Shown piece after piece: positions 234-17,997 of a stretch of DNA of 21,829 nucleotides. The first letter of the stretch is position 1, and every line of letters starts with the position of its first letter. The notes beneath the pieces were generated by a model. It made no database searches, had not been told where the DNA came from, and saw only the letters and a list, made by a program, of their open reading frames with translations. This stretch comes from a virus. The DNA lies in IMG/VR virus record IMGVR_UViG_3300027865_000337, positions 1 to 21,829 of that record; one strand, given 5' to 3'. A program made the translations under genes and the position numbers.

Positions 234-1274
234 TTAGTCTACTCCTATATTTAATAATGGTTCTCTGGTAGTTGTATTAGCTTTCAATACTGTCCTGTCA
301 TAGTCTATTGGTGAAATACTAGCACTTGGTGATACCGACGCACTAGTGCTGGCTGACGGTGAATAACTAGCACTAGATGATGCCGATGGACTCCTGGAAG
401 CACTCGGTGAACGGCTCGCACTAGCACTAGACGATGGGCTGATACTAGCTGATGGAGAGGCGGATGCTGATACACTAGCACTCGGTGATCGTGACGCGCT
501 GGGTGAATAACTGGCGCTCGCACTAGCAGATGGAGAAACGCTTGCCGATGGGCTATAAGAGGCACTTGCACTTGCTGAAGGACTAGTAGATGCAGAAGGA
601 GAGTACGAAGAACTTAATGAAGCACTAGGAGACACTGAAGCGCTAGGAGAGGCTGAGGCGCTGGGACTTACTACTGCTGCATGAGTAACCCTCAGTATAG
701 GTTTGTTTCCTGCTGCATCCGAGTATGCCTCCCACTGCGTCCATGCTGCTGTACCTGCTGCCGGATCTGAACCACTCCTGTCACTCTCAAACACCAACAT
801 TAAGTCTGTTACACCACTTTTGTTTATGTCACTTCTACCTGAAGCATTTAATGTGAAGGTAATGTAATTAGTCGCTGTCATTGCTGACAAAGCAACTACG
901 TCAGATAAAGCTGTAGTAGCTCTTGTCTGGTAATCTGCTGCTATTACTGTTGAGGCTGCATCTGGGGTACATCCAACCACTACCTCACTGAGACCTCCCA
1001 TGTCATCTGCTTTTGCCTCCAAGTATAGCTCTAGTGTAGCTGCGCTGATTGCATCAGTACCTATTGAGGAGGTATCAAACTGAAATATCGCCCTCCTGCA
1101 AGCTGTATAATCTGACCCTGACCGAGTAAAGTATGGTGCTTGTATGTCGTTGTCTGAATCATTAGCCGCAGTTCCATTAGCACCGATTATAGTTGCGAAA
1201 GACTCAGTGACGCTATCTCTAAACGCCATTCCATCTTCCTCTGTTGCGGTTGGATTGAAAACTGTTTCGGCCAT
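234..1274 (-). CDS. fibre-type protein with jelly-roll-like N-terminus and Ser-Pro-Ala tail, 346 aa
   Basis: Residues 1-200 look like a beta-sandwich of the DNRLRE/CBM-like type. The motif RRAIFQFDTSSI, followed by AISAATLELYL and a later DLMLVFESD-type strand, matches the usual pattern (R-x-F-x-FD-x-S-x-I, A-x-L-x-L). Residues about 201-321 are a low-complexity Ser/Pro/Ala tail (SPSASxSPSAS), and the last 25 residues leave the repeat with SPIDYDR and TTREPLLNI. The C-terminal REPL motif also ends the upstream 954-aa protein. There is no signal peptide. It starts 9 nt after the 954-aa stop, so it is probably co-transcribed. The role is probably an accessory fibre or surface-binding protein on the virion; the enzymatic or binding specificity is unknown. 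Confidence 0.75.
   Translation of the reverse strand: MAETVFNPTATEEDGMAFRDSVTESFATIIGANGTAANDSDNDIQAPYFTRSGSDYTACRRAIFQFDTSSIGTDAISAATLELYLEAKADDMGGLSEVVVGCTPDAASTVIAADYQTRATTALSDVVALSAMTATNYITFTLNASGRSDINKSGVTDLMLVFESDRSGSDPAAGTAAWTQWEAYSDAAGNKPILRVTHAAVVSPSASASPSASVSPSASLSSSYSPSASTSPSASASASYSPSASVSPSASASASYSPSASRSPSASVSASASPSASISPSSSASASRSPSASRSPSASSSASYSPSASTSASVSPSASISPIDYDRTVLKANTTTREPLLNIGVD
310..673 (-). repeat. SPSAS mucin-like repeat region in the 346-aa protein
   Basis: About 120 codons encode almost only Ser, Pro and Ala with occasional Val, Tyr, Arg, Leu or Ile, in units of the form SPSASxS. The codons are varied, so the repeat is exact at the protein level but degenerate in DNA. 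Alternating Ser with regular Pro is the composition of O-glycosylated mucin-like stalks. Confidence 0.9.
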
Positions 1275-1283: not shown

Positions 1284-4148
1284 TTAGCTTATATCTATTA
1301 AAGGCTCTCTACCGTACTCTATGGGCGATATACTAGGTGAAGCACTAGCTGTTGGGACATATAACGGTTCTCTACGATGTGATATAGGCGATATGCTAGC
1401 TGACGCAGAGGAACTAGGACTAGGACTCACACTAGCACTTGGCGATAATGATGCCGAGGGTGATCTGGACGCAGATGCAGAAGCAGAGGGTGATCTAGAG
1501 GCAGAAGGTGATCGTGATGCTGACGCAGAGGAACTAGGAGATACTGAGGCACTTGGTGATGCCGATTTAGAAACACTAGAGCTTGGTGAACTTGATGCGG
1601 ATGGACTTAAACTCGCTGAAGCGCTAGCAGATGGAGATGCACTGGCGCTAGGTGACCGTGAAGCAGAGGCGCTGGAACTGGGAGAAACCGAAGAGCTAGG
1701 AGAAACCGATGCAGATACGGAGGCTGACGGACTTCGTGAAGCGCTAGGAGATACAGAGGCACTCGCGGAAGCGGAGGGTGACAGACTGGCAGATGGCGAT
1801 ATTACGGCGCTGTCGCTAGCTGATGGTGACAAGGATGCACTAGGAGATGACGACGCAGATGGACTAGCACTAGCAGAGGCCGATGCAGAAGGCGAGACAG
1901 ATGCCGAAGGGCTACGACTTGCTGATGGTGATTGTGAAGCTGAAGCTGAAGATGAAGGTGACTGTGAAGAGCTGGGTGATACAGAAGCCGAAGCGGACGC
2001 GCTAGGACTACGACTGGCGCTTGGGCTTCGTGATGCGGAGGCACTAGCACTAGGGCTTCTAGAGGCCGATGGTGAAAGACTTGCAGACGCGCTAGCTGAT
2101 GGACTAGCAGAGGCCGATGGTGATCTACTTGCGCTAGCGCTTGCACTAGGGCTTGCGCTTGCACTAGGGGAGCGTGATGCTGATGCACTCGCTGATGGAC
2201 TAACACTGGCCGAAGGAGAAGCTGATGCGCTGGGTGAGCGTGAGGCACTCGCACTTGCTGAGGGTGAACGCGATGCACTAGGGGAAAGTGATGCACTAGC
2301 AGAGGCAGACGGTGACCTGGACGCAGATGGTGATCTAGATGCACTAGCAGAGGCGCTGGGTGAACGTGAGGCACTGGGCGACCTAGAAGCACTAGGTGAT
2401 ACCGAAGCACTCACGCTAGCACTAGGGCTACGAGAGGCAGACGGTGATCTGGACGCAGATGCAGAAGCAGAAGGGCTAGCAGATGCCGAGGGACTAACTG
2501 ATGCAGAAGCCGACGCACTAGGAGACACGGATGCCGAAGGCGATCTACTTGCGCTCGGTGAGCGCGAAGCAGAGGCCGATGCAGAAGGACTTGCTGATGC
2601 AGATGGTGATCTTGATGCTGACGCTGATGCGGATGGGCTGGCACTAGCACTTGGAGATACAGAGGCGCTAACACTGGCTGAGGGGGAGGCTGATGCAGAA
2701 GGGGATGTTACTCCTGCCGGTACTCTTGAATCGAAGTCATTGGTATCTATACCTTCTGGAGCAGAATCTATCCCAGTGACAGATACACTAGCTCTGATAG
2801 TTGTAGTTAGTTGTCCCGAATTAAGATAAAGCTTATCCCCAGAAGACCCTGTCCAGGGAGTATGGGTACCATCATAAGAAACATCTCTTGGTACGCTTTC
2901 TACGGCATTAACATCAACACTATCCTTTACAGTTGAACTAAATTGTCCCGATACTAAGTGTAGTTTTGTAGTTGTACCTGTCGAGTTATCTCCACAAGTA
3001 GGAGTATTAGTCCCGTCCCATGAAATACCTTGTGGTTTGGCTTCATTCCAAGCTGATGTGACTTGAGATGTTTTTATCGTGCTAGTAAATTGTCCGGATT
3101 GAAGATAGAGTTTATCACCTCCTCTACCAGACCAAGGTGTATTAGTTCTGTCATAACTAATACCATCTGTAATACTATCTATAGCCCCTACATCCTCTGA
3201 GTCCTTAATTGTTGATGTGAATTGACCTGAAAGTAATACCAACCATTCTTCCGTTCCATCATCTGCTGTATAGGGGGTGTTGGTTCCGTCCCAACATACG
3301 CCTGTTGGATTACCTCTATTAGCGACACCCCCGCGAGCATTGCTAGTCTTTAGAGTTGACGTAAACTGTCCAGATTGGAGATAAACTTTCTCGCCAGCCG
3401 TACCTGACCAAGGAGTGTTTATTGTGTCTGGTGGGCCAGCTCCTCCATAACGAGATACATCGTCGTCTGTCTCTATACCTTGCACTGAAGCATCTACGCC
3501 GCTTACATCTTCAGAAGTTTTTAATGTTGAAGTAAACTGGCCGCTTTGTAGATATAATTTATCCGATTCTCCACCACCCCAGGGTGTATTAGTACCATCC
3601 CAAGATATACCTACCGCTATATTATCTACTCCGCCAACACTTTCACTGTCCTTGTTAGTTGAAGTAAACTGACCTGATTGTAAGTAAAGTTTATCTGCTG
3701 TTGCTCCAACCCAAGGGGTGTTAGTCCCATCATACGAAATATCTTCTACTGCAGTATCTACACCACTTACGTCTTGGCTAGTTGTCAATGTTGAAGTAAA
3801 CTGGCCGCTTTGTAAGTAAAGCTTGTCTGCAGATTTACCTGTCCATGGCGTATTAGTGCCATCCCAGGATATACCAGTACCAGTTGTATCAATTGAATGC
3901 ACATTTACGCTAATTTTTACAGTAGACGTAAATTGTCCTGATTGAAGATAAAGACTCGCATCAGCTATTGAAGATGTGTTTGCTCTTCTCATCCACGGGG
4001 TATTAACACCATCCCAGCTAATACCCATTACGATTAATCCATGACCACTTACATCTTCACTGTCCTTAATCGTTGAAGTAAACTGGCCGCTTTGTAGATA
4101 TAATTTATCTGCAGATGTTCCTATCCACGGTGTATTAACTGTCGCCAT
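1284..4148 (-). CDS. giant repetitive fibre protein: ten propeller-like repeats plus Ser-Pro-Ala stalk, 954 aa
   Basis: Residues 1 to about 480 contain ten repeats of 44-57 residues, each of the form NTPW.G....[12 protein letters not shown] followed by S..V...D and GISWDG. The conserved Trp, the strand-like KLYL and the SGQFTST core suggest blades of a beta-propeller or a stacked beta repeat; this fold is inferred. Residues about 482-917 are a stalk of roughly 435 residues, nearly all Ser, Ala and Pro. The C-terminus carries two REPL motifs (HRREPLYV and YGREPLIDI), matching the tail of the next gene. No signal peptide is seen. It lies just downstream of the glycosyltransferase island and an antisense HNH gene. 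It is likely a host-binding fibre or capsid appendage, and its stalk is a plausible substrate for the island enzymes. Confidence 0.8.
1399..2705 (-). repeat. SPSAS mucin-like stalk of the 954-aa protein (about 435 codons)
   Basis: Continuous Ser/Pro/Ala low complexity in units such as [15 protein letters not shown], with Arg, Val, Leu or Gln at the variable position. It is the longest of three such regions in the window. The opposite strand stays open here (1321-2829) only because of the biased composition. Confidence 0.9.
2720..4136 (-). repeat. ten tandem 44-57-residue repeats (NTPW...SGQFTST)
   Basis: The SGQFTST core, or a close variant (SGQFSST, SGQLTTT), occurs ten times in the 954-aa protein. 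Most copies differ in DNA, but copies 1 and 5 share a 38-nt identical stretch at 4072-4109 and 3526-3563, which suggests recent exchange between repeats. Copy 5 carries an insertion of about 12 residues. Confidence 0.85.
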
Positions 4149-5903: not shown

Positions 5904-7481
5904 TTAGTATAACACTAAATCATTCCATCCTGGTATATCTTTTATGGTACTTTCTTGCCAATTAACACAACCTGATTTATCGCGAAAGTCTTTTAACCCT
6001 CTCCACTTATTGCCGGTGAGTGTTCCTTTGTGTCTGATGTCTATGTAGGGGACTTCAGAGTTCCAGACTTCGTACTTGGTTTTGTCTCTTCCGCCAGGTT
6101 CATAACTTCTATTAAATCCTTGTTGGTTAACATGTGTTAACCTATCTCGGTAATGGTTAACAAGATGCTCGCGGTACGCACATAGTCCCGAAACTTGGTT
6201 AGCGTCCCAATGTACCGCGAACCCATCTTCTCTTACCTTCCACCAATTCTGGTTGTAATAAAATTTGTCCTTTTTGGGTGGCGTGAAATCAAAGTGTGAT
6301 GGGTGATAAAGACAGTCGTGTTCACACATGAAGATTATATCCTCTTCCATTGCTTCTAGACCCGCTAGTATTTGCTTGAACATGGTTAAATAACCACGTT
6401 CCGCTTCTATATGTATATTATGCCCAAATCCCTCCATTGGCTTCAACGACACGCTGGTTATTGGTAGACCTATACTTTTTAGCTGCCTCTGACATTTCTT
6501 AGCTGTGCTTACCTTCAACTGATTATCAGTATAGTACAACAACCCTTTTAGTGTCTCTCCTTTGAGTTTGGCTATATAATTCTCCTCCCAGCCAGGCACA
6601 GGCCAAAACTTTTCTACTAACCACTCCAGGTTCCTTGTTTGCTTATGCCACTTGTTATTGTGGAACGTATCTCTCAGCTTGTCTTTAGCCCTCTTTTGCT
6701 CATTACCAGGATTGGAATACGGGAACCCAAAGTCTTTCCCTTGTGTCCTGAACAAGTGTGCGTACCAGGTCCGTTTGTCGCAGATAACACTCCCCCCAGA
6801 CAACCATGTTTTTAACGCCACCTCTGCACCTTGCCCTCCCCAACTCCCCCATGAAGCGTCACACAATTCTCTCTCCCAGTAATTCTCCCGTGTAGTCATA
6901 AAGCACGATCCTTGCAAAGACATAGTTTCTACTAAGTCCCCTTTCTGCTTGGCCTTGTATTCATTGAAGTAACAAAACTCTAATTGATCGTTTACATGAT
7001 ATGAAGTGCTTTGTGGACTTGGCTTACCAAACCATTTCATGTCTCTAGTTGTTTCTTTCCCACACTCCTCACATGGCCCCATTGGTCCTTGATACCTTCT
7101 GTGTCCGTCAGGGCATAACCAATCAAAGGCGTGTAAGTTTCTCATTACTGGTACTATCGTCCAGTCGTCTTGCATATCCTCCATGAGTATCCGATCAAAG
7201 CCTTTATCAAACGAACAGTGTGCGTCTACCTTCATTACATACTTAGCCTTACTAAGTTGACATGCTAGGTTAGTTGCTGCTCGTTGCCCGATTGTTTCAG
7301 GAAGCCTTACTATTGTTACTCTCTTGTCGTCATCTATTGGTGGGTCTGACCAGGCCCCATCTAGGACGACGATTACCTCAGTCTTGCCTTCTATGTTTTT
7401 AAGGATGTCATCAACAGTATTTTTCAAGAACATCTCGTTACGCGAAGGCACTAATATACTTAAGTCATATTTACCTTTCAT
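5904..7481 (-). CDS. two-domain glycosyltransferase: GT27-like domain fused to a second GT-A domain, 525 aa
   Basis: Domain 1 (residues 1-300) resembles polypeptide GalNAc transferases. It has LSILVPSRNE, GQRAATNLAC, VMKVDAHCSFDKGF with a D86-A-H88 DxH metal motif (the GT27 hallmark, unlike the DxD of most GT-A enzymes), LQGSCFM, and WGGQGAEVALKTWLSGG followed by TWYAHLFR. The last piece aligns with the family WGGEN...WQCGG...HVGHVFR segment. An insertion with C123, H127, C137 and C140 looks like a zinc ribbon. Domain 2 (about 310-525) has FMCEHDCLYHPSHFD and is homologous to the 228-aa protein at 9259-9945. Domain 1 is paralogous to the protein at 12626. The start lies 23 nt from the divergent HNH start, with no Shine-Dalgarno site. 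Confidence 0.85.
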   Translation of the reverse strand: MKGKYDLSILVPSRNEMFLKNTVDDILKNIEGKTEVIVVLDGAWSDPPIDDDKRVTIVRLPETIGQRAATNLACQLSKAKYVMKVDAHCSFDKGFDRILMEDMQDDWTIVPVMRNLHAFDWLCPDGHRRYQGPMGPCEECGKETTRDMKWFGKPSPQSTSYHVNDQLEFCYFNEYKAKQKGDLVETMSLQGSCFMTTRENYWERELCDASWGSWGGQGAEVALKTWLSGGSVICDKRTWYAHLFRTQGKDFGFPYSNPGNEQKRAKDKLRDTFHNNKWHKQTRNLEWLVEKFWPVPGWEENYIAKLKGETLKGLLYYTDNQLKVSTAKKCQRQLKSIGLPITSVSLKPMEGFGHNIHIEAERGYLTMFKQILAGLEAMEEDIIFMCEHDCLYHPSHFDFTPPKKDKFYYNQNWWKVREDGFAVHWDANQVSGLCAYREHLVNHYRDRLTHVNQQGFNRSYEPGGRDKTKYEVWNSEVPYIDIRHKGTLTGNKWRGLKDFRDKSGCVNWQESTIKDIPGWNDLVLY

Positions 7482-7504
7482 ATAGTTTGCGGTATAATGT
7501 TTAT
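7470..7504 (+). promoter_or_regulatory. predicted sigma70-type promoter giving a leaderless HNH mRNA
   Basis: TTTACC at 7470-7475 (4/6), a 17-bp spacer, a perfect TATAAT at 7493-7498, then exactly 6 nt to the ATG at 7505. The -35 element lies within the start of the divergent 525-aa GT gene. The geometry is the same as for the HNH gene at 4241. Confidence 0.6.
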
Positions 7505-7981
7505 ATGGTATATCTTAAAGTTGATTTTTCTAAAAAAGAGAGTAGCAGGATTTTTACTAAAATTAGGAAAACCAAAACCTGCTGGCTTTGGGAAGGTAGT
7601 GTTGATTGGCTTGGGTATGGCATGACCCATTATAGAGGTAAGACAGAAAGAACCCATCGACTTCTTTATGCTTATTTTATAAACCCCATACCAAGAGGAA
7701 TAAAAGCACGTCAAGATTTTCAAATAGATCATCTCTGTAAAAACAAGAGATGCTGTAATCCAGATCACTTGGAGCTTGTTTCTCAAAAGATAAATTGCAT
7801 TAGGGCAAACAGTAAGACTCACTGTAAACACGGGCATCTTCTCAAAAAGACCAGAAAACGGAAATACTGTCCATTTTGTGATACCATTCGCCATAAAAAG
7901 AGAATGGAGGGCTCGCAGCGCGAATACTGGTTGAAAAAACAACGCCAAGCTACTGCACGATATTATGCTAAAAATAAATAG
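7505..7981 (+). CDS. HNH endonuclease with C-terminal zinc-finger segment, 158 aa
   Basis: The start was set at the second in-frame ATG (7505) because TATAAT lies 6 nt before it; an earlier ATG at 7487 would precede the predicted transcript start. The core is TCWLWEGSVDWLGYG, THRLLYAYF, FQIDHLCKNKRCCNPDHLELVS, an HNH with structural Cys and the DH...NPDHL signature of phage HNH proteins. Downstream C-x-HGH and YCPFC form a likely zinc finger. The Lys/Arg-rich C-terminus (about 30 residues) suits DNA binding. It is antisense to the operon and fills the gap between two GT genes almost exactly (23 nt to one, 5 nt to the other). It is likely a free-standing homing-type nuclease. Confidence 0.9.
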   Translation: MVYLKVDFSKKESSRIFTKIRKTKTCWLWEGSVDWLGYGMTHYRGKTERTHRLLYAYFINPIPRGIKARQDFQIDHLCKNKRCCNPDHLELVSQKINCIRANSKTHCKHGHLLKKTRKRKYCPFCDTIRHKKRMEGSQREYWLKKQRQATARYYAKNK

Positions 7982-7986
7982 GTAGC

Positions 7987-8667
7987 TCATATTACATTCT
8001 CTGCTCCTATGTGTTCGTCGTACCATCTCAGTCCTTTCTTTAGCCTATAATCTATCACTTCGTCAGTCTTGTCTTTGCGCGGGTAAACTAGGCGTGATCG
8101 CTCAAAATAGTATTCTTTGCCTAGATATTTGTAGTGAAGTAGCTTGATCCTTGATTGTACTGGCTGCACTAGCATCCCATTCCATCTAGCTTCGGCTGTA
8201 TGTCTGCCGTTACCAAAAATTACATCTATTTGAGGATTAAACATTACCGGCTTATCGAATGACCTCATCCTCACTCCGGTTTTAATCTCATCATATATCT
8301 GTTCATCTGTTGTGGGTGGTTTCTCGGAGATCATCATGTAGGCTACCGGCTTGACTATTCCTGATAGTAAAGATAATTGACTTACTGGTTCGTATAGGAA
8401 CTCGTCCGCATCCACGCATATAACCCAGTCTGCCTTCCGGCTGTACTTCTTATAGGCCCACTCAAACGCTGCGCTATGATCCCCCTCTGTGAATGGTCTG
8501 TCAAATGGGTAGTCTAATATCCTAGCCTTACCCTTTGCTATGCTTAAAGTTTGGTCAGTACAGTGATGGTTTATTAAAGTTATCTTAGCGAACTTTGAAT
8601 AGTGACGTAAGAAGTACGGTATTATAAGCTCCTCGTTCCAAATTACGCTGTAAACGTGAATGTTCAT
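7987..8667 (-). CDS. GT2/GT92-like glycosyltransferase, 226 aa
   Basis: The N-terminus VYSVIWNEELIIPYFLRHY is the WNEE-x-PYFLRHY signature of the Glyco_tranf_2_4/GT92-like group. INHHCTDQTLSIA follows, then ADWVICVDADEFLY with D86-A-D88-E-F as the DxD-type metal site. GNGRHTAEARWNG and IKLLHYKYLG match the later substrate and base region. The length is normal for the core domain, with no membrane anchor. Its ATG overlaps the sulfotransferase stop (ATGA), so the two are probably translationally coupled. Donor and acceptor are unknown. Confidence 0.88.
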   Translation of the reverse strand: MNIHVYSVIWNEELIIPYFLRHYSKFAKITLINHHCTDQTLSIAKGKARILDYPFDRPFTEGDHSAAFEWAYKKYSRKADWVICVDADEFLYEPVSQLSLLSGIVKPVAYMMISEKPPTTDEQIYDEIKTGVRMRSFDKPVMFNPQIDVIFGNGRHTAEARWNGMLVQPVQSRIKLLHYKYLGKEYYFERSRLVYPRKDKTDEVIDYRLKKGLRWYDEHIGAENVI

Positions 8668-9269
8668 ATACTATAAAATTTATCTATCACCCACTTTTCG
8701 TTTTCAGTAATTCTCTCTGTTAACTCTTTACTTAATTCTACTTCATTGTAATTTGCTACATTGACTGCTGGCTGGTTTCTTATCATATCTTCATCAAACT
8801 TCTCTCCCGCTAGAGTTAATGCTGTTATTAAATCCTCCCTAAGATTCTCATGCCTTCCTATAAAATCAACATTATCAAAATACCGATACATCTGGGTAAG
8901 AAAACCCTTTGGGTATTTATTTAATGAGTTACTTACAAACTCCTCGAATGAATTACTCCAACAATCTGCCAGTGCGAATCTCTGATCTATTCCCCTAGTC
9001 CTTCCCATCACAGCTCTCCACAAAGAGGCATACCAAGCAATAGGATGTCTTACGAAGCAAAATGAGAATAAGTCATCTTTCAGCTTTGGTGCTGTGTGTC
9101 TATTGAATAACCCAAACAGATATTTGGTGTAATTCTCATTCTTCACCTTGGCTGGTCTTTCTGTGACATCTTTAGCGTTCTTGTTGTTGACACGAATCAT
9201 CTCACTAACCCACACACTTCCAGTCCTGGGTATATAGTAAAATACACTTTTGTCTGTTTTAAGGGGCAT
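8664..9269 (-). CDS. PAPS-dependent sulfotransferase-like protein, 201 aa
   Basis: YYIPRTGSVWVSEMI (residues 11-25) fits the 5'-phosphosulfate-binding loop that reads PKSGTTW in classical enzymes. CFVRHPIAWYASLWRA (71-86) fits the 3'-phosphate-binding Arg and Ser (R74, S82). RHTAPK at 58-63 and FIGRHENLREDLITAL further on are also usual for carbohydrate sulfotransferases of this size. It would transfer sulfate from PAPS to a hydroxyl, here perhaps on a sugar added by neighbouring GTs. It overlaps the upstream GT by 11 nt and the downstream GT by 4 nt, so it belongs to the same translation unit. A kinase-type P-loop was considered but the RHP...S motif argues for sulfotransferase. Confidence 0.8.
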   Translation of the reverse strand: MPLKTDKSVFYYIPRTGSVWVSEMIRVNNKNAKDVTERPAKVKNENYTKYLFGLFNRHTAPKLKDDLFSFCFVRHPIAWYASLWRAVMGRTRGIDQRFALADCWSNSFEEFVSNSLNKYPKGFLTQMYRYFDNVDFIGRHENLREDLITALTLAGEKFDEDMIRNQPAVNVANYNEVELSKELTERITENEKWVIDKFYSI

Positions 9270-9945: not shown

Positions 9946-10387
9946 ATTTGTTGCTCAGTATTGTCGTATTCGGTCTTTGTTTTACAGAGTCAGTTCGGTA
10001 TTTGAACGATGGCAGTTCTAATTTCTCACTATCGTGAACAACTATATAGTCAGCATAGTTCGCTAACCTACTAACCTCTATTGCTCTACGCTCCTCTGGC
10101 GCATGATCTACGAACGCCATCCCCCATGTTCTTTGCACTACGATACTATCCCAGTCGGTTACAAAATGTATTGCATGTAATCCTCGAGCAAAGTTCTTGT
10201 AATGTATATAGTATTTTAAGTCGTTCTCGTAAGATACTAGTTCCCTGTTCTGGTCTACAGCTAAACTATGCAACAATGCTGTGCTGAATGGCCCTGTACC
10301 TAGTTCTAATATCGGGCCTTGTGATATGGATAAGACCTGTACGAGTGTTGGTATATGACTTGCTCCTGCTGGTCTGTTGTCTCTCAT
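9935..10387 (-). CDS. SAM-dependent methyltransferase-like protein, 150 aa
   Basis: GPILELGTGPFSTALLH (25-41) is motif I (E/D-x-G-x-G). LVSYENDLKYY fits motif II, with an acidic residue at the strand end. FVDHAPEERRAIEVSRLA and YADYIVVHDSEK fit the post-core region. At 150 residues it is a minimal Rossmann core without a substrate lid. It is ATGA-coupled to the upstream DUF616-type GT and overlaps the next GT. A sugar or glycan O-methyltransferase is plausible from context, but the substrate cannot be read from the sequence. Confidence 0.65.
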   Translation of the reverse strand: MRDNRPAGASHIPTLVQVLSISQGPILELGTGPFSTALLHSLAVDQNRELVSYENDLKYYIHYKNFARGLHAIHFVTDWDSIVVQRTWGMAFVDHAPEERRAIEVSRLANYADYIVVHDSEKLELPSFKYRTDSVKQRPNTTILSNKYEL

Positions 10388-11016
10388 CGTCTTGGAGTTA
10401 AGTACGGAGTATTCATAAAGTCATCTTCTATCACGTTCACCTTACACCTAGACCAGAATAGACAGTAGGGTAAAGACAGTTGATCTATCGTATGGTAACG
10501 CGATATATGATACCACCAGTTAACCATCATATCTTTTACCTTATCCTCGTTGCGGTATATAAGTGCTGTCGTAGCATATAGTCTGTCATCATGATAACCC
10601 CTGACTGCCTCTATTTGCTCCTCTAAGAGTTCGTTTTCGTATCTAGGTGTTATATAGTCACATTTATCTTCTAAACGCTTCCTGAGGTATTCTGCTTCCT
10701 CGTAGATGGTCTTACGGTGAGGATGTCTGAATACCGCTATATCTGCATCTCCTAGTTTGTCCCTAAACCACTTCACTGAATCTTCGTGCCTTAATTGGCA
10801 AGATCCATCTACCCATAAGTAGATTTCGTGCTCCGGTACCATCTGCCATCCAAAGCATTTAACTATACGCGCCTGTAAGCGCGGGGTCATTGAACGATGT
10901 CTAGGTGGAAAGTTCTTATCAGTGAAAGAGTAATGGTCACACGGGACAGACTGCTTGACCGGCTTATACAACTTGTCGAAGTTGCCTAGACTAGCTGTTA
11001 TCGTACAAACAGCCAT
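10384..11016 (-). CDS. DUF616/TOD1-type glycosyltransferase, 210 aa
   Basis: ARIVKCFGWQMVPEHEIYLWVDGSCQL (from residue 49; WVDG at 68-71) fits the K...F..Y...IWIDG motif of PF04765. AVFRHPHRKTIYEEAEY (95-111) matches the HP-x-R...Y-x-EA motif. The late segment NWWYHISRYHTIDQLSLPY matches the family WW...S-x-RDQLSF. The family includes plant TOD1/MUCI70-type proteins and bacterial GTs. It overlaps the upstream methyltransferase gene by 19 nt and the next by 4 nt, so it sits inside a tightly packed operon. The sugar and acceptor are unknown. Confidence 0.85.
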   Translation of the reverse strand: MAVCTITASLGNFDKLYKPVKQSVPCDHYSFTDKNFPPRHRSMTPRLQARIVKCFGWQMVPEHEIYLWVDGSCQLRHEDSVKWFRDKLGDADIAVFRHPHRKTIYEEAEYLRKRLEDKCDYITPRYENELLEEQIEAVRGYHDDRLYATTALIYRNEDKVKDMMVNWWYHISRYHTIDQLSLPYCLFWSRCKVNVIEDDFMNTPYLTPRR

Positions 11017-11609
11017 GATCTGCTTGAATCTCTTACTAGACTTCTAGATTTTTTTGACTCTAATCCTAATACCATCAACTTAATATCGTTCCTCTTTACA
11101 TATTCCATAACCGCTCTCTTAACAGCCGGCAGCCTGTTGGTGAAGTCATGTCCAGCTACAATGCCGTCTTTTCTTACCTTTGGTGTCCATATCTCCATAT
11201 CCTCCAATACTGATTCGTGGCTGTGGTTGCCATCGATATACACAAAGTCTATCGAGTTATCCTTGAACCTCTTTACTGCATCAACGCTAAACTCCTTAAT
11301 CACCTTGAAGTTGGGATAGGCTTTTACAGTTTCTTCTATTTCTTTCAACATCCTGTCGTACGTCCCTTTCTTTTGATAGTCGTTATAGCCCTGATACTGT
11401 ACCCACGGGTCTATACCGTATAGTGTCATTCCTGGATTATTCCTCATAATACGTCTGGCGTACTTACCAAATGCCACTCCCACTTCCACCCCCACTCTGA
11501 AGTTAAGGGTATTTAACCATTTAGATAAGTCAGCGCGTCCTACATCGGGTATCTCAAGGTAGTCACTATGAACACCGTATTCCTCGTATAGTTTTTGTAA
11601 TGTGTTCAT
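10998..11609 (-). CDS. class I SAM methyltransferase (Methyltransf_24-like), 203 aa
   Basis: VGVEVGVAFGKYARRI (39-54) is motif I. LYGIDPWVQYQGY fits motif II with the Asp that binds the SAM ribose. SIDFVYIDGNHSHESVLEDM, with the Y-I-D-G-N-H signature, and GGHDF-like GIVAGHDF are typical of Methyltransf_24, which includes many sugar O-methyltransferases. It is clearly paralogous to the 179-aa protein on the other side of the HNH gene at 11648 (shared LYGIDP, WxPKVR, DGIV/GGIV). No Shine-Dalgarno site precedes its ATG; the HNH insertion now supplies its upstream sequence. Confidence 0.85.
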   Translation of the reverse strand: MNTLQKLYEEYGVHSDYLEIPDVGRADLSKWLNTLNFRVGVEVGVAFGKYARRIMRNNPGMTLYGIDPWVQYQGYNDYQKKGTYDRMLKEIEETVKAYPNFKVIKEFSVDAVKRFKDNSIDFVYIDGNHSHESVLEDMEIWTPKVRKDGIVAGHDFTNRLPAVKRAVMEYVKRNDIKLMVLGLESKKSRSLVRDSSRSWLFVR

Positions 11610-11613
11610 ATTA

Positions 11614-11647
11614 TTGTTTTATTGGTCATGTTTGTTACACTATTATT
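11614..11647 (+). promoter_or_regulatory. predicted extended -10 promoter giving a leaderless HNH mRNA
   Basis: TGT-TACACT (extended -10, hexamer at 11636-11641, 4/6 matches) lies exactly 6 nt before the ATG at 11648. A TTGTTT sits 16 bp upstream as a weak -35. It is the weakest of the four such promoters, but the -10 to ATG spacing is identical. Confidence 0.45.
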
Positions 11648-12100
11648 ATGCAATTAACTATTTACAAGAACGATGTCCCTTTCACTATTCTGTTTGATAA
11701 CGTAGATGCTAATAAAGTATCTCGCTATCGTTGGTATATTCATACGCTTGGCTATGTTTGTGCACGCGCTAATGGTAAATATCTTTATCTTCATAGACTA
11801 ATTGCTAATACACCAGATGGTATGGTTACTGACCACATCAACCACAACAAATTAGACAATCGTAAATCTAATCTTCGTGTCTGTACTACTAGAGAGAATG
11901 TCATAAATTGCAAGTTATCTAAGAATAATAAATCTGGTTTTCGTGGTGTGTCTTTCAGGAAAGACAGAAATAAATACAGGGCATATTTGATGGTTGATCG
12001 TAAACAGGTTTTTCTTGGTTATCATAGTCACTATAAAGATGCTGTTAAGGCTAGGCTAATAGGCGAAAAAAGGTACTTTGGTATCTATGCTCCCACTTAA
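11648..12100 (+). CDS. HNH endonuclease with AP2 DNA-binding domain, 150 aa
   Basis: The start at 11648 was chosen over an earlier ATG at 11600, which would overlap the divergent methyltransferase and precede the predicted promoter. The HNH_3-type core runs YLYLHRLIANTP, VTDHINHNKLDNRKSNLRV, and is followed by an AP2-type domain: SGFRGVSFRKDRNKYRAY and FLGYHSHYKDAVKAR. HNH plus AP2 is a well-known phage homing endonuclease architecture. It is antisense to the operon. Its TAA interlocks with the stop of the convergent 179-aa methyltransferase (12097-12100), so the insertion is tight on that side. Confidence 0.93.
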   Translation: MQLTIYKNDVPFTILFDNVDANKVSRYRWYIHTLGYVCARANGKYLYLHRLIANTPDGMVTDHINHNKLDNRKSNLRVCTTRENVINCKLSKNNKSGFRGVSFRKDRNKYRAYLMVDRKQVFLGYHSHYKDAVKARLIGEKRYFGIYAPT

Positions 12101-12636
12101 TCAGTCTTATAATACCACGCATCCGGCTGACGATCATCAACGTAGGCTTCCTCATCCCACTCTGTTGTCTGCAAATCTATCCCCATTTTCTCCACCCACT
12201 CATCTATAGCCCTTACCACTCCTCCACCGGCACAACGCTTGTAATAATCGTGCATTGACACTATCCCACCTTCCCTGACTTTTGGATGCCATGTTTCTAT
12301 ATCTTCTTTCACATCTTCGTAATCATGCTTTCCATCTATAAATACAAAGTCCAGCGATCCATCCTCTACTAGCTTTGCTGCCTCTACACTACGCGCTATT
12401 ACTAGCACATAGTCTTCATACTTGCTTAGTCGGTTCTTAGCGTCCTCTAGTTTTCGGTCTATCCTCTCTTGTGGATAGCCTGGGTACTCGGTGTATGGAT
12501 CAATCCCATACAGCTTTAATCCTGGTATATTCTCCATTAGCTTCTCTGAGTACACACCATCGCATACTCCTACCTCTACTCCCTTCTTGTATCCTAGTTT
12601 GGCAAAGTGCCCGGCTAGTTCTATTCTATTCTTCAT
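12097..12636 (-). CDS. class I SAM methyltransferase (Methyltransf_24-like), 179 aa
   Basis: KKGVEVGVCDGVYSEKL (17-33) is motif I and KLYGIDPYTEYPGY is motif II. SLDFVFIDGKHDYEDVKEDI carries the F-I-D-G-K-H signature, and GGIVSMHDYYK follows. It is the paralogue of the 203-aa protein next to it across the HNH gene, and the two have diverged strongly in sequence. It overlaps the upstream GT27-like gene by 11 nt. Glycan O-methylation is a reasonable reading from context; DNA or protein methylation is not supported by any target-recognition domain. Confidence 0.85.
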   Translation of the reverse strand: MKNRIELAGHFAKLGYKKGVEVGVCDGVYSEKLMENIPGLKLYGIDPYTEYPGYPQERIDRKLEDAKNRLSKYEDYVLVIARSVEAAKLVEDGSLDFVFIDGKHDYEDVKEDIETWHPKVREGGIVSMHDYYKRCAGGGVVRAIDEWVEKMGIDLQTTEWDEEAYVDDRQPDAWYYKTD

Positions 12637-13576
12637 ATTTTTTTGGTTCCTTAGAAAATCTAAAATCGTTTTTACTATCTTCTTCTATCCTATCCTGCCA
12701 ATTATCGGGCCACGTAGGGACAGGTGAGAATTTGTCTATTAACCACTTCCAGTCGTGTATTGCCTTCTCCCATCTATTATTAAGCCAGTAATCGATGCAG
12801 TATTGTCTGCCCTTCTCTTTGTCTACCATAAATTGATTGTACTGCGCATTGGAGAAACCATACTTCTTACCTGTCTTCCCCTTATGAAAGTGAGCATAGT
12901 GGGTGTTCTTATTCACCACCAATCGACCTCCGCTCAGCCAGGTCTTATTGCCTATCTCTTGGGCTTCGTTATTGAACGGTCCATAACCGATACTGTCCAT
13001 CTCCCCGATATTATCCCAATGTTTTCTAGACATTAAATAACACGAACCCTGCCAGGACATCGTGTCATCTATTGGTATCTTTTTGTTGTGGTGATATTTT
13101 TCTCTCCACTCCTGTCCATACAATCCCTTCCGCCAATCAAATCTATTTACGAACGGATAGGTTATAAACATATAATCTATTGGTAATCGCTTATCATTTT
13201 CTGTTTCAGTTGTCAGCTTCCACTTCTCGGCATCCAGTCTGTATCTCCTTGGGACTACAACCCAGTTATCCTCCATTTCTGAGATCATTCTGCGGTCATA
13301 CCCTTTGTGGAATAAACAGTGTTCGTCTGTTTTCATTATGTAATCCCCAGTAGATACTGCTACACCACGATTGATTGTCTCTCTCATACCATAGTTATCG
13401 TGGACTGTACCATGATGGACTATCTTCACTTGTTTGTTTTCCTCCAACATTTTTTCTGGCCAGTGCCCGTCTAGCACTACGATGACTTCCACTTCTCCTT
13501 CAGCTTTATTGATCACATCGTCTACGGTTTTCTGTAGATACTCATCGCACCTTGATGGTATTATTACACTAAGCAT
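12626..13576 (-). CDS. GT27-like (polypeptide GalNAc-transferase-like) glycosyltransferase, 316 aa
   Basis: The start was moved to the ATG at 13576 because two GGAGG sites (13580-13584 and 13588-13592) stand just before it; an upstream ATG at 13606 lies inside the previous gene. Numbering from this start: LSVIIPSRCDEYLQKTVDD at 2-20, IMKTDEHCLFHKGYDRRM with DxH at 84-86, WQGSCYLMSRKHW, then NEAQEIGNKTWLSGG and NTHYAHFHK near 203-232. The DxH motif and the later acidic/TWLSGG/H pattern are those of GT27 enzymes. It is paralogous to domain 1 of the 525-aa protein, including the C-terminal NNRWEKAI...WLIDKFSPVP segment. Related folds in phages also include GTs that decorate DNA bases, so the acceptor is not settled. 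Confidence 0.85.
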   Translation of the reverse strand: MLSVIIPSRCDEYLQKTVDDVINKAEGEVEVIVVLDGHWPEKMLEENKQVKIVHHGTVHDNYGMRETINRGVAVSTGDYIMKTDEHCLFHKGYDRRMISEMEDNWVVVPRRYRLDAEKWKLTTETENDKRLPIDYMFITYPFVNRFDWRKGLYGQEWREKYHHNKKIPIDDTMSWQGSCYLMSRKHWDNIGEMDSIGYGPFNNEAQEIGNKTWLSGGRLVVNKNTHYAHFHKGKTGKKYGFSNAQYNQFMVDKEKGRQYCIDYWLNNRWEKAIHDWKWLIDKFSPVPTWPDNWQDRIEEDSKNDFRFSKEPKKYEE

Positions 13577-13593
13577 ACTCCTCCTTTCCTCCG
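13577..13593 (-). promoter_or_regulatory. double Shine-Dalgarno site deciding the start of the GT27-like gene
   Basis: GGAGGAAAGGAGGAGT occupies the 17-nt gap after the adaptor stop, with GGAGG at 13588-13592 (spacing 11 nt) and 13580-13584 (spacing 3 nt). It is much the strongest ribosome-binding signal in the window, at the entry to the glycosylation island. Confidence 0.7.
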
Positions 13594-14319
13594 TTATACG
13601 CTCCAACCGTTGTCGTACAAATCAGATGAGTTTGGTAGCTGTGCTATGTACTCAGCTGAATTGTCTACTCTAGCTATAGCGTCTAGTTGCTTCTCTAAAT
13701 CGACCTCGTAGTTGTTTTCTACTGGTGACATTGGTAGAGGCTTAGGCTGCCTACTCTTGTATTCTATGCCTACCCGCCTCGCCAGTAGCTCGTGGAATTG
13801 TCGTGGGAATCCGAAGGTAGTGGTTGATGGGTCTACTTCTAGCCCCACAGTATTATCTGTCATGTTACCCAAATCCTCTGGATAGACATGCGCCCACATC
13901 CTTACACCGTCAGTTACATCTATAATTGTCCCTGACAGTATTAAGATAGCTCTACGTCTAATAGTGTAAGCAAATCCTCCCTGACTGTTTGTGAACTCTT
14001 TAACTATTTCACTCTCAGTTTCTGAGCCGTGAAAGTCCTTGATAAACTCCGCTGGGAATCTTGAAGTAGTCGTACTAAACCTAATCTCTACTTTGTGGAT
14101 TCGATTTAAGACATCATCACCGACGGCATACTCGCGCTGATCCGCTACTAGGTTGAATGTATAAGGGACTAAAAACATCCCATTATTGCGCTCTACTATT
14201 TTAGAGGCCATTTCATCTTTATACATGTTTACATCTGCTAACATGTCCGCATCAGTATATGTCGTAGTATTTGTTCGAGTTTTTCTTCTTATTGTGTCTG
14301 CCAATCCTTTTGCTTTCAT
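13594..14319 (-). CDS. head-tail adaptor/connector candidate, 241 aa
   Basis: The N-terminal part (LADTIRRKTRTNTTTYTDADMLADVNMYKDEM) is helical. Beta-rich segments follow: GMFLVPYTFNLVADQREYAVGDDVLNRIHKVEI and FAYTIRRRAILILSG. Helices resume around FPRQFHELLARRVGIEYKSRQ. That order (helix bundle, REY-type strand, helix near the end) is usual for phage adaptor proteins placed between the head and tail genes. It follows the head genes here, which fits. The start overlaps the stop of the 43-aa NUMOD3-like frame (ATGA). The assignment rests on pattern and position, not on a diagnostic motif. Confidence 0.6.
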   Translation of the reverse strand: MKAKGLADTIRRKTRTNTTTYTDADMLADVNMYKDEMASKIVERNNGMFLVPYTFNLVADQREYAVGDDVLNRIHKVEIRFSTTTSRFPAEFIKDFHGSETESEIVKEFTNSQGGFAYTIRRRAILILSGTIIDVTDGVRMWAHVYPEDLGNMTDNTVGLEVDPSTTTFGFPRQFHELLARRVGIEYKSRQPKPLPMSPVENNYEVDLEKQLDAIARVDNSAEYIAQLPNSSDLYDNGWSV

Positions 14320-14447
14320 AATGTATACTTTAATGCAACTTTTTGATGATATAATCCTTCGTATTTATTTTCCTTTCCTTTTATTTTTTTGTGTGCATCA
14401 GTGAGCTTCTTGCCTTTATTCCACGGTACATTTCCTTTATTAAACAT
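14316..14447 (-). CDS. 43-aa NUMOD3-like fragment of a homing endonuclease
   Basis: A short frame in an otherwise geneless 178-nt gap, beginning MFNKGNVPWNKGKKLTDA, followed by HKKIKGKENKYEG. This matches the NUMOD3 module (G..PWNKGKKLS..HK.KI) and the KGxxNxxxxG stretch that precedes the catalytic part in some HNH enzymes. No catalytic residues remain: the frame stops at TGA overlapping the adaptor start (ATGA). It may be a decayed endonuclease remnant or a real mini-gene. A perfect TATAAT lies 6 nt before the ATG, as in the three intact HNH genes. Unlike them it lies on the same strand as the operon. Confidence 0.6.
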   Translation of the reverse strand: MFNKGNVPWNKGKKLTDAHKKIKGKENKYEGLYHQKVALKYTL

Positions 14448-14459
14448 AATTCTATTATA
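14448..14459 (-). promoter_or_regulatory. predicted leaderless -10 element before the NUMOD3-like frame
   Basis: On the minus strand TATAAT (14459-14454) is followed by six bases and then the ATG at 14447. No good -35 is seen at 17 bp, where a GC-rich hairpin (14466-14489) lies instead. A transcript from here would also read through the adaptor gene and into the GT island. Confidence 0.45.
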
Positions 14460-14465
14460 CCATAT

Positions 14466-14489
14466 CCCGCCCAAATTTAATCGGGCGGG
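14466..14489 (-). other. GC-rich hairpin after the SPSAS head protein gene
   Basis: CCCGCCC, a 10-nt loop, and GGGCGGG form a perfect 7-bp stem beginning 8 nt after the stop of the 295-aa gene. No U-run follows on either strand, so it is not a standard intrinsic terminator. An attenuator or an mRNA-stabilising structure is possible. Confidence 0.6.
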
Positions 14490-14497
14490 TATGATAG

Positions 14498-15385
14498 CTA
14501 CTCCTTTGCTATTGCGTAAGCAGAATACGATCCACTTGCTGCTCTGTTACACTGCACCCTAATTGCCTTTAGGGCTAAGAACTCATCTAGCCACACCATT
14601 ATTGAATCAGCTGGAATTGCTGTTATGGATGGGCTTGGTGATACGGAAGCACTTGCGCTCGGTGAAGCTGACGCACTTGGAGAATAACTTGCTGATGTGG
14701 ATGAACTAGGAGATCGTGAGGCGCTAGGTGATGCACTCGCGCTAGGAGATGCTGACGCGCTAGGTGATCTACTGGTTGACGCACTTGGAGAATAACTTGC
14801 TGATGTGGATGAACTAGGAGAAGCCGAAGCCGATGGAGATCGTGAAGCACTCGGTGATGCCGATGCACTAGGTGATCTGGACCAGCTTAACGATTCTGAA
14901 GCGCTAGGAGATCTGGATGCACTAGGTGAACCAGATGCGCTGGCGCTTGGTGAAGCGGAAGCGGATGGTGATGCCGAGGCACTCGGTGAACTTGACGCAG
15001 ATGCGGATGAACTAGGTGAAGCGCTGGCGCTTGGTGAAGCTGATGCAGAAGCAGAAGAACTAGGTGAGCGTGACTGAGACGCACTTGGGGATCTGCTCTC
15101 TGACGAGCTTAGTGTTACCCCTTGTGTCCTTGTCAAACTCTGACTATTGCTATCTGCTGTGTTGTTAATCAGCATGTTTAGCTTTACCCAATCTCTACCG
15201 TTAATAGTTCCATCAACAGTAAATGTCCCACTACCACCTGCGGTAATGCCATCCGCCGTGAATTGCAGTCCTACCTTGTTGTATTCTTCGATATTGAACG
15301 GATCAGACACCGTAAGGGCTGCCGTTACTGCTTCGAAGAATGCATTTTCTCTGAATTTCATAGGTTTTTGTTTAGTTTGCGACAT
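14498..15385 (-). CDS. virion-type protein with an SPSAS insertion inside a compact domain, 295 aa
   Basis: Residues 1-95 look like the first half of a small beta domain: FFEAVTAALTVSDPFNI, YNKVGLQFTADG, GTFTVDGTINGRDWVKLNML. Residues about 252-295 look like its second half: IPADSIMVWLDEFLALKAIRVQCNRAASGSYSAYAIAKE. Between them sit about 155 residues of Ser/Pro/Ala repeat (SPSASxS). The repeat is therefore internal, like a long loop protruding from a capsid-type protein, rather than a terminal tail. It follows other small head genes. It is probably a capsid decoration or surface protein that displays the mucin-like loop. GC-rich hairpins flank the gene on both sides. Confidence 0.7.
   Translation of the reverse strand: MSQTKQKPMKFRENAFFEAVTAALTVSDPFNIEEYNKVGLQFTADGITAGGSGTFTVDGTINGRDWVKLNMLINNTADSNSQSLTRTQGVTLSSSESRSPSASQSRSPSSSASASASPSASASPSSSASASSSPSASASPSASASPSASASGSPSASRSPSASESLSWSRSPSASASPSASRSPSASASPSSSTSASYSPSASTSRSPSASASPSASASPSASRSPSSSTSASYSPSASASPSASASVSPSPSITAIPADSIMVWLDEFLALKAIRVQCNRAASGSYSAYAIAKE
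14629..15100 (-). repeat. SPSAS mucin-like insertion in the 295-aa virion protein
   Basis: About 155 codons, nearly all Ser, Pro and Ala, with some Arg, Glu, Tyr and Thr. A unit reading SPSSSTSASYSPSAS occurs twice with closely similar DNA (around 14680-14705 and 14775-14815), which suggests internal duplication. It is the same repeat type as in both fibre genes over 10 kb away. Confidence 0.9.
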
Positions 15386-15427: not shown

Positions 15428-15925
15428 TTAGGCAGCTACTATGTTTCCGTTAGCTTCTGCTGGAGCCCAGATGACGTAGTAATCGATTTGACCAGCGGTA
15501 ATGTCCGTTGTGTCAGTAGTTTCGATTATGTCTGCGCCATCATTGATGAAGTTCAAACCTGCTGCGGCCTGTATATCTGATCCGGCTTCTGTGCCAGCGT
15601 CAGTATAGATGTCACCATCATCGAGGGTAGTTGTGTCAGCGATCTGTGCTAACAACTGTGCGGTGTTACCTGCTACTCCTACCTCAAGAGTCGCTGCTCC
15701 TGTCAGGCTGGTATTACAGACACCCCAGATTGCCTTAATGATTACGTCACCAGTAACAGTGAATAAGGTGTAAGGATCTAGTGCGCCACCGTCGTTACCG
15801 TGAGCATCTCCTGTTCCTCCAGTAAACGACGTTGATGACTTTTTAACTACTCTCCATACCAACTTTTCGTGTTGGTTTTCTTCTCTGTCTATTAGATTGT
15901 CTACTAATCTTTCTTGAAAACTCAT
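15428..15925 (-). CDS. small virion-type protein, 165 aa
   Basis: The N-terminus MSFQERLVDNLIDREE is charged and helical. The rest is Gly/Thr/Asp/Ala-rich and probably beta: LFTVTGDVIIKAIWGVCNTSLTG, then ATLEVGVAGNTAQLLAQIADTTTL, then QIDYYVIWAPAE. The GDV..IWGVCNTxLTG and LEVGVAGNTA stretches are typical of uncharacterised head proteins encoded near the capsid gene in uncultured phages. No catalytic motif. It lies between two other small head genes, probably as a decoration or head-completion protein. Confidence 0.65.
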   Translation of the reverse strand: MSFQERLVDNLIDREENQHEKLVWRVVKKSSTSFTGGTGDAHGNDGGALDPYTLFTVTGDVIIKAIWGVCNTSLTGAATLEVGVAGNTAQLLAQIADTTTLDDGDIYTDAGTEAGSDIQAAAGLNFINDGADIIETTDTTDITAGQIDYYVIWAPAEANGNIVAA

Positions 15926-16003: not shown

Positions 16004-16333
16004 TTATCCCATTGCGAGCCACGAGATCTGCTCGTCCTTTGCATTGACGTCGGTATCCAGACCAATAGTGAACCCGCTGTTAGCTACAGGAGTGATACCT
16101 AGAGTTGTAATAATAGAACGAGTACCGGCTGTCACTTGCTTTAACGCTTCTGCGTCAGCCATGCTCTCAAACCATTCATACATATCTCCACTTGTTTCGT
16201 TACATACTCGGACATAACGAGGTGTAAAGCCACAAGTGATCGTTACTGCTACAGCGGTATCATCTTCGATGTATGTACCAGTAGCTAAACGAGTCAACGT
16301 TAGTGGGTTTACTTGTGAGGCTGTATTTGCCAT
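16004..16333 (-). CDS. small virion-type protein, 109 aa
   Basis: The sequence runs TGTYIEDDTAVAVTITCGFTPRYVRVCNETSGDMYEWFESMADAEALK, then a Thr/Gly-rich part ending ISWLAMG. The GFTPRYVRVxNxTSGDxxEWFExMAD block is recognisable from unnamed phage head proteins lying just downstream of N4-gp56-type capsid genes. It is short, beta-rich and has no membrane segment. It follows the 190-aa gene by 28 nt, with a GTCGC element in the gap and no Shine-Dalgarno site. Probably a decoration or head-surface protein. Confidence 0.65.
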   Translation of the reverse strand: MANTASQVNPLTLTRLATGTYIEDDTAVAVTITCGFTPRYVRVCNETSGDMYEWFESMADAEALKQVTAGTRSIITTLGITPVANSGFTIGLDTDVNAKDEQISWLAMG

Positions 16334-16361: not shown

Positions 16362-16934
16362 CTAAAGAAGAGCGTCTCCAAATGTCACACCATCTTTTCT
16401 TGCCTCATAGTCTATTTGACCTTCGGCGATAGCATCATCGGTTTGCTGTTGGGATCTCGTTATAACTTCTGCCACTTGCTGAGGTACTTCGATGTACGTC
16501 TGCTTGGGGAAGTCCATACGGTATCCGTTGAGTTGCACCGATTGCATTATGGATGGGTCTTCTTTCGGCGCCCGTGGGACAATAATGCGTACTTTATGTT
16601 GTTTAAGTAACTCTTCCTTCATCATTGCCGATTTACTTTCGGGGATAGGATCAGATTCTTTCGAACCTGGGACTGTACCTTTTCTTACTTGATACTGACG
16701 CAGATAATCAGTTGGGACGCTCTCCAGAGCCACCCCGTCTAATTCCTGATCTTCTGTGTCTGTTCCCTCTGAAGTGATACGTTCCTCATCCGCATCCTCT
16801 GATACTTCCTCTTCGGGCGCATTCTTTTCTTTGGCTTGTGCCAATCTCTCCTCCAATACCACATTGGTATCTTTTACCGTCGTAGCTACACCTAACGCCT
16901 TTAGCTCGGCGAATAGTTCGCTTCTTTTTGTCAT
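16362..16934 (-). CDS. head-associated protein with SAP/HeH-like N-terminus, 190 aa
   Basis: Residues 8-37 (FAELKALGVATTVKDTNVVLEERLAQAKEK) fit the small SAP/HeH helix-extended-loop-helix fold, found at the ends of several phage head and tail proteins. An acidic linker follows (EEEVSEDADEERI). The C-terminal domain holds HKVRIIVPRAPKEDPSIMQSVQLNGYRMDFPKQTYIEVPQQVAEVI, the pattern V-x-V-x-x-NG-x-x-x-x-x-P-x-x-x-x-x-VP seen in small proteins next to capsid genes. It follows the major capsid gene by 97 nt. The role is probably head completion or scaffolding; no enzyme motif is present. Confidence 0.6.
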   Translation of the reverse strand: MTKRSELFAELKALGVATTVKDTNVVLEERLAQAKEKNAPEEEVSEDADEERITSEGTDTEDQELDGVALESVPTDYLRQYQVRKGTVPGSKESDPIPESKSAMMKEELLKQHKVRIIVPRAPKEDPSIMQSVQLNGYRMDFPKQTYIEVPQQVAEVITRSQQQTDDAIAEGQIDYEARKDGVTFGDALL

Positions 16935-17031: not shown

Positions 17032-17997
17032 TCACGAAGAGACACTATGTTCTATCCTCGCTGCAAAGTTCTCATTCAAACGCACGGTTACGTGAGTAAC
17101 CTTCCAACCTGAGGTTGAGCGTTGGTCGAGGGGATCTGCAGTACCGGCTGAGCCTAGTGGCTTGACAATGTTCTTCACTGCCTCACCAGAGATTCTGGTA
17201 ATCCCATAATAATCTTGAGCCAAGATCATTGTTCGATGTACGTCCTGACTGTCTGCACCGCCAGCTGCGCTGACAGAAGCATTAGTGGTCATTACGAATC
17301 GTACTTCATCTAACTTACCTACTTCACCATCCATTACTCCCTTTTGGGAAGCATACTCTTCTACTGGTACCCATCCTGTTGCATCTTTTAGATCAAACAG
17401 GGTGTCCTCTGAAATGATACCAACATAACAAGCGTTGATTGGTGACGTGTTAAAGCCAGTTGATGGATTAACCATTCTGGTAATTTTGCGAGCATTGTTG
17501 CCTTGCAAGGTTCTAACAGCTTCTCTGATTTCATCACGGTTCAACTTGTCTGCGTTTGTAACCGTGACAGTAGAAGTAGCTGCTCCTGCATACTGGACTG
17601 TCGTACCAGCGATCATTACGTTACGTGTCAACTGATCTATTGTATTTCCCATTTGCTGTCCCAATAAGTCTGCTGTTTCAGTCAAGACTGGGTCAGGTGT
17701 GGACATTTGCAAGAAATCAGTCAAGGTAACGAAATCACCATACTGTGCAACTGTGCCAGTCACATCGGTTGTCGATAGACTTGTTCCAGATGGCGTAACA
17801 CCTTCTGTTAAAGAAGTAGTGTTAGCCGAAAGGAGCGTGTAACGACGGAACTTGATTATGTTAGTGTTGCCTCGTGGAATGTCCTTTACCTGCGCCCACC
17901 TTGTGTGTAGGAGCAATGGTCGGGCAGCCTTAAGCATCATCCGAACGTAAAAGTTATTGAAACCATCAGTGATCTGGGTTCTCGTTGTATTTGCCAT
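17032..17997 (-). CDS. major capsid protein, N4-gp56 family (HK97 fold), 321 aa
   Basis: The family signature is clear: LLLHTRWAQVKDIPRGN, then IIKFRRYTLLSANTTSLTEGVTPSGTSL (48-74), TVAQYGDFVTLTDFL (82-96), DPVLTETADLLGQQMGNTIDQLTRNVMIAGTTVQYAG (102-138). A later NACYVGIISEDTLFDLKD and TMILAQDYYGITRISG complete it. The N4-gp56 family forms the icosahedral shell with an HK97-type fold. The length matches the family (about 300-400 aa). It follows the scaffold-like gene by 40 nt, as expected. No Shine-Dalgarno site; the leader ends GAATT-ATG, similar to the other head genes. Confidence 0.93.
   Translation of the reverse strand: MANTTRTQITDGFNNFYVRMMLKAARPLLLHTRWAQVKDIPRGNTNIIKFRRYTLLSANTTSLTEGVTPSGTSLSTTDVTGTVAQYGDFVTLTDFLQMSTPDPVLTETADLLGQQMGNTIDQLTRNVMIAGTTVQYAGAATSTVTVTNADKLNRDEIREAVRTLQGNNARKITRMVNPSTGFNTSPINACYVGIISEDTLFDLKDATGWVPVEEYASQKGVMDGEVGKLDEVRFVMTTNASVSAAGGADSQDVHRTMILAQDYYGITRISGEAVKNIVKPLGSAGTADPLDQRSTSGWKVTHVTVRLNENFAARIEHSVSS

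Follow-up and report, generated by a model that had tools for sequence, protein, structure and literature searches.

The protein encoded at positions 14,498–15,385 of the window (the whole stretch of DNA that was analysed, a virus record of 21,829 bases) is a single domain that is interrupted by a long SPSAS tract of the form (Ser-X)n. Alignment of natural homologues lacking the tract establishes both the continuity of the domain across its two halves and the site of insertion, while the codons of the tract demonstrate that selection acts on it at the protein level. Additionally, SPSAS tracts go with glycosyltransferase genes across the records surveyed. The tract probably forms a mucin-like loop that is glycosylated by phage enzymes and displayed on a virion beta-sandwich, where the head location is suggested by gene position and the glycosylation by the adjoining cassette of genes.

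Table 1. Positions in the window of the split-domain gene, its parts and the neighboring genes
Feature	Positions	Strand	Details
Third SPSAS protein	234..1274	(-)	346 aa, 14 SPSAS units
Second SPSAS protein	1284..4148	(-)	954 aa, 49 SPSAS units
GT2 glycosyltransferase	5904..7481	(-)	PF00535, E 1.7e-12
Glycosyltransferase (Glyco_tranf_2_4)	7987..8667	(-)	PF13704, E 1.5e-14
Sulfotransferase	8664..9269	(-)	PF03567, E 3.9e-9, above cut-off
TOD1/MUCI70-type glycosyltransferase	10384..11016	(-)	PF04765, E 4e-6, above cut-off
Methyltransferase (Methyltransf_24)	10998..11609	(-)	PF13578, E 6.2e-18
Methyltransferase (Methyltransf_24)	12097..12636	(-)	PF13578, E 5.8e-17
GT2 glycosyltransferase	12626..13606	(-)	PF00535, E 8.4e-14
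Probable head-tail adaptor, next after the split-domain gene	13594..14319	(-)	SU10_adaptor, E 1.5e-4, below its cut-off; conserved order
Virion-module protein, beta-sandwich split by SPSAS tract	14498..15385	(-)	295 aa, ATG start
C-terminal part of domain, residues 254-295 and stop codon	14498..14626	(-)	Aligned to tract-less homologues
SPSAS (Ser-X)n tract, ~residues 96-253	14627..15100	(-)	158 residues; turn between two predicted strands
N-terminal part of domain, residues 1-95	15101..15385	(-)	Aligned to tract-less homologues
Small gene between capsid protein and split-domain gene	15428-15925	(-)	
Small gene between capsid protein and split-domain gene	16004-16333	(-)	Kept in most relatives
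Small gene between capsid protein and split-domain gene	16362-16934	(-)	Kept in most relatives
Major capsid protein	17032..17997	(-)	phrog_1357, E 4.8e-72; PF25209 above cut-off

Domain Organization and Homologues

The earlier note on this DNA proposed that an N-terminal part, extending to about residue 95, and a C-terminal part flank the SPSAS repeat and together form one compact domain. The layout stands except for the length of the tract, which is 158 residues and not 155. Relatives of the protein were reached via the major capsid protein (65 related loci) and then via alignment searches. Among the ORFs of the capsid-protein-related loci, L013 (119 aa, E 5.3e-19) and L005 (122 aa, E 9.7e-18) match both halves of the window protein; a third tract-less homologue, L188 (122 aa), came from a capsid-protein scan of bacterial genome contigs, and further homologues were added by alignment search. 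Duplicates were dropped (L203, the same as L202; L205, the same as L206; L208, the same as L005), as was L211, which is near-identical to L210, and L207 was kept out of alignments A5 and A6 owing to its different insert. In alignment A6, 14 distinct tract-less proteins of ~120 aa can be aligned over their full length to the window protein, running through both halves, and the SPSAS tract is the sole large gap. The two halves are thus covered by one continuous protein, as the single-domain proposal predicted. Of the outcomes that had been named as counting against it, neither halves encoded as separate proteins nor a prediction of unrelated domains was seen.

A second carrier of the tract is found in record G003, whose 203-aa homologue has ~80 residues of SPSAS inserted at the same site. 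An L188 query matches this protein at residues 6–87 and again at 86–118, within one open frame. The presence of both tracts at the same place indicates that the insertion site is common and the tract length variable. The window and G003 have diverged, with capsid proteins 48%, portals 60% and adaptors ~60% identical.

The homologue in L207 (positions 7104–8324) contains an insert of ~240 residues made up of two similar copies of a non-SPSAS sequence, located near profile position 20 and away from the SPSAS site. Apparently, the domain can accommodate inserts in at least two of its loops. L188 is encoded on JAGLNE010000073.1, a contig binned as Candidatus Parcubacteria, on which the relative of the capsid protein is 72% identical; this hints that the phage group infects Patescibacteria, with an error of binning possible.

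Searches with the whole split-domain protein gave no match in phages or viral contigs. With the tract removed, the joined halves gave no match in viral contigs and only five weak matches in phages (best E 0.1), and searches of the protein and its homologues against PHROGs and Pfam gave weak matches only.

Predicted Structure

The structure of the window protein was modeled with a three-sequence alignment. The pTM of this model is 0.38 with no PAE given, so it is the fold matches and the homologues that indicate how the two halves are placed relative to each other. Block-mean pLDDT values are 69–84 at residues 11–70, 74–84 at residues 261–295 and 35–44 in the tract, which is bordered by strands at residues 85–89 and 260–265. 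The model orders both halves around a disordered tract, and solved single beta-sandwich domains align over both halves, supporting the single-domain claim from the structural side. VIA-align places YomS first (Z 10.9, rmsd 2.2, 102 of 112 YomS residues, spanning both halves), with XepA also at Z 10.9. A lambda tail-tip chain is next (Z 9.5), a Klebsiella phage baseplate chain also matches, and a capsid chain of phage 7-7-1 is among the next matches (Z 9.0, rmsd 4.2). The aligned ranges of the model for YomS, XepA and the 7-7-1 chain start at residues 1–4 and end at residue 295.

The natural tract-less homologue L005 folded poorly (pLDDT 57). In this weak model the insertion site corresponds to the turn between strands 80–84 and 88–92. 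The model did not match YomS, its best matches being general beta-sandwiches with none at a Z of at least 8, and a fold assignment from it was dropped as the model is too weak. The comparison of A6 with YomS by hhalign was not significant (E 0.12, probability 0.5%), profiles A3 and A6 yielded no credible solved relative by sequence, and a Foldseek search against viral models returned nothing at E 0.001 or better. Due to the poor L005 model and the hhalign result, a YomS-like fold is regarded as likely for the modeled domain, and membership in the YomS/XepA family is not claimed.

Composition of the Tract and Selection

The codon pattern for three consecutive SPSAS units has nine matches in the window, three of which fall in the split-domain gene, compared to a mean of 0.00 in 100 dinucleotide shuffles. 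Serine occupies 98% of alternate positions in the tract and 7% of those in between, which are filled by proline, alanine and other residues. Codon identity between SPSAS units is 0.30–0.33 in the split-domain gene (0.26 expected at random codon choice), 0.22–0.23 in the second SPSAS gene (0.23 expected) and 0.23–0.26 in the third (0.25 expected), and both serine codon classes, TCN and AGY, are used throughout the tracts. Serine at 98% combined with near-random codons indicates that it is the protein and not the DNA that is selected. It is highly improbable that the tract is instead functionless and arose as a neutral expansion through DNA slippage. The split-domain gene does contain traces of duplication in keeping with slippage, namely a 108-bp partial duplication in which 79% of positions match and an exact self-repeat of 45 bp, but most SPSAS units have distinct DNA (14/16 in the split-domain gene, 47/49 in the second SPSAS gene, 14/14 in the third), and serine is kept although TCN and AGY codons mix. 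This codon evidence led to the rejection of pure slippage.

Other SPSAS Proteins

Ahead of its tract, the second SPSAS protein of the window contains about ten repeats of ~45 aa with a common motif that begins NTPW (11 further protein letters not shown), which possibly form a propeller-like or fibre part. A 502-aa open frame at 1321–2829(+), antisense to the SPSAS tract, looks like a by-product of the repeat and not a gene.

Across records, SPSAS is found on many different proteins, including a tail sheath stabiliser in L070 (phrog_227, E 1.3e-66), a phrog_14065 protein in L103 and a phrog_18503 protein in L112. The split-domain profile matches 0/47 and 0/28 of the other SPSAS records (a comparison with no positive control and with G003 left out), indicating that SPSAS usually occurs on other proteins. 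In L018, a capsid-protein relative, an SPSLSPSAS repeat lies at 12868–14733, shortly after the adaptor, on a different protein that is LamG-like by eye. A second, unrelated small SPSAS protein is encoded in L076 (1202–2287(-), 361 aa) and L200 (5001–5801(+), 266 aa). The two proteins have both flanks in common (68% identity in the N-flank), and the tracts enclosed by them differ in length. A tract-less relative was looked for and not found, and the pair is only suggestive of a second case of internal SPSAS insertion.

Gene Order and Probable Virion Location

In all eight distinct relatives with both genes (L013, L005, L188, G003, L202, L204, L205/L206 and L207), the split-domain gene follows that for the capsid protein, and no other matched gene lies between it and the adaptor; in L013 it is separated from the adaptor by a few further ORFs. 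For the more distant homologues (L209–L217), the stretches examined contained no match to either the capsid protein or the adaptor of the window, and the gene order is therefore established for one phage group only. Based on this position, the product most likely decorates the capsid or belongs to the neck, and a location on the head is likely.

It is less probable, with odds clearly against it, that the protein belongs to the tail, the neck whiskers or an attachment structure and that the tract binds the host or a surface there. The fold matches to the lambda tail-tip and Klebsiella phage baseplate chains are consistent with such a location, as are the position of yomS among the tail genes of SPBc2 and the adjacency of the split-domain gene to the adaptor. 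Against this, the gene sits between the capsid protein and the adaptor, ahead of any recognised tail gene, and the decoration protein of phage 7-7-1 has the same fold and lies beside its capsid protein gene. This protein, gp002, is reported to be a 135-aa beta-rich decoration protein that bridges capsomers (PMC12796354). The matched 7-7-1 chain is 135 residues long, and the gp002 gene follows that of the capsid protein.

Putative Glycosylation Cassette

The cassette of modifying enzymes sits between the adaptor and the second SPSAS gene. All seven enzymes listed in Table 1 score above their Pfam cut-offs, and the other genes have no family. G003 keeps the order GT2, methyltransferase, methyltransferase, TOD1, GT-like, GT2 at 45–68% identity; no counterpart of the sulfotransferase or of the Glyco_tranf_2_4 gene turned up in the G003 stretch searched. 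Three opposite-strand ORFs within the cassette (4241–4741(+), 7487–7981(+) and 11600–12100(+)) resemble HNH homing endonucleases by eye.

The association between SPSAS and GT2 genes was probed across records. The 119 stretches from the SPSAS search include 80 loci with an ORF holding at least three SPSAS, representing 76 distinct records, all of which were scanned for GT2 (L147, L169 and L183 were omitted as parts of included records, and L135 shares a record with L087). PF00535 passes its cut-off in 26/48 and 18/28 of these records, and a GT2 gene is present in 41 of the 57 that are 10–80 kb in length. GT2 is absent from all 44 of the 65 capsid-protein relatives on contigs of at least 10 kb, among which only L018 carries SPSAS, with no GT2 match in its 40.5-kb record. 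Decoys with other low-complexity matches, comprising 30 records from the loci of L069–L148 without three SPSAS (nine such loci of L149–L187 were left out), contain GT2 in four cases, all in records of at least 94 kb, and in 0/23 at 10–80 kb. GT2 is likewise found in none of the 16 records of tract-less domain homologues, three of which exceed 41 kb and belong to the same phage group. Fisher tests give p values of 2e-15 and 6e-10 for the GT2 association, which serve as a guide only as the records share ancestry and the counts are not independent. Taken at the level of records, the SPSAS tract goes with glycosyltransferase genes.

Proposed Function

In the favored mechanism, one beta-hairpin turn of a small virion beta-sandwich would be replaced by a long unstructured (Ser-X)n tract, such that each copy of the protein projects a flexible loop from an otherwise intact domain. 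The glycosyltransferases that the phage encodes next to this gene would most likely O-glycosylate the serines of the tract, with the glycan completed by the sulfotransferase and methyltransferases. The resulting mucin-like brush could shield the particle or mediate weak attachment to surfaces. Glycosylation of the tract is considered likely in view of the adjoining cassette; the exposure of the copies and the purpose of the brush are presumed.

Alternatively, the tract could be an unmodified disordered spacer or entropic bristle, with the glycosyltransferases acting on phage DNA or the host surface, which is judged unlikely. In favor of this reading, glycosyltransferases of phages have been reported to act on DNA or to alter host serotype (PMC12619734), and 16 of the 57 SPSAS records of 10–80 kb have no GT2 match. 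GT2 genes nevertheless accompany the tract and are absent from tract-less relatives in the same phage group, and serine at nearly every alternate position exceeds the needs of a generic spacer. Both points argue against the spacer. More broadly, there is an even chance that these features reflect a phage virion-mucin system, in which several virion proteins that are unrelated to one another, across many lineages of phages, bear (Ser-X)n acceptor tracts as loops or tails. Such tracts would be built together with phage-encoded glycan cassettes (including sulfation and methylation in cases such as the window) and would leave free particles with a mucin-like coat.

Few phages have documented virion glycosylation, and a sequence seldom reveals where the glycans attach. 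In the window, the acceptor tract is obvious, and together with matched tract-less relatives and an adjoining cassette it makes both acceptor and enzymes predictable from the genome. If the proposal is correct, a decorated mucin-like coat would be a common and overlooked surface of environmental phages, with a bearing on attachment, aggregation and particle survival. The split-domain family also provides a natural pair with and without the tract for structural work. A literature search for SPSAS in phages, serine-rich repeats on virions and mucin-like capsids returned nothing relevant, most subscription journals being outside its scope.

Comparison with Known Systems

The serine-rich repeat glycoproteins (SRRPs) of Gram-positive bacteria, such as GspB and Fap1, resemble the window protein in having a long serine-dominated repeat tract with glycosyltransferase genes nearby. 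SRRPs are, however, bacterial cell-surface adhesins exported by accessory Sec, whereas the window protein is a phage protein with its tract inside a folded domain. The glycosyltransferases of SRRPs are GtfA/GtfB, in contrast to the GT2-type enzymes of the window. The LPXTG cell-wall anchor motif is absent from the 295-aa sequence, read directly, and consequently the protein is not filed as an SRRP.

YomS and XepA (of SPBc2 and PBSX) have a beta-sandwich that the model of the window protein matches over both halves, whereas the L005 model did not match YomS. They differ in having no significant sequence similarity to it and no serine tract, and in being encoded among tail genes in SPBc2. YomS and XepA are reported to form pentameric discs, for which a location at the capsid vertex has been suggested (PMC6834076). 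Agrobacterium phage 7-7-1 gp002 is similarly a small beta-rich protein encoded beside the capsid protein gene, and the capsid entry matches the fold; the fit is looser, and the available part of the source describes no repeat tract.

In mycobacteriophages, virion proteins are reported to be modified by phage glycosyltransferases, with glycans at the C-termini of capsid and tail-tube subunits (PMC12619734). The window phage would be alike in the modification of its virion proteins by phage glycosyltransferases, which is a prediction from its genes, but its candidate acceptor is an internal (Ser-X)n loop rather than a C-terminus.
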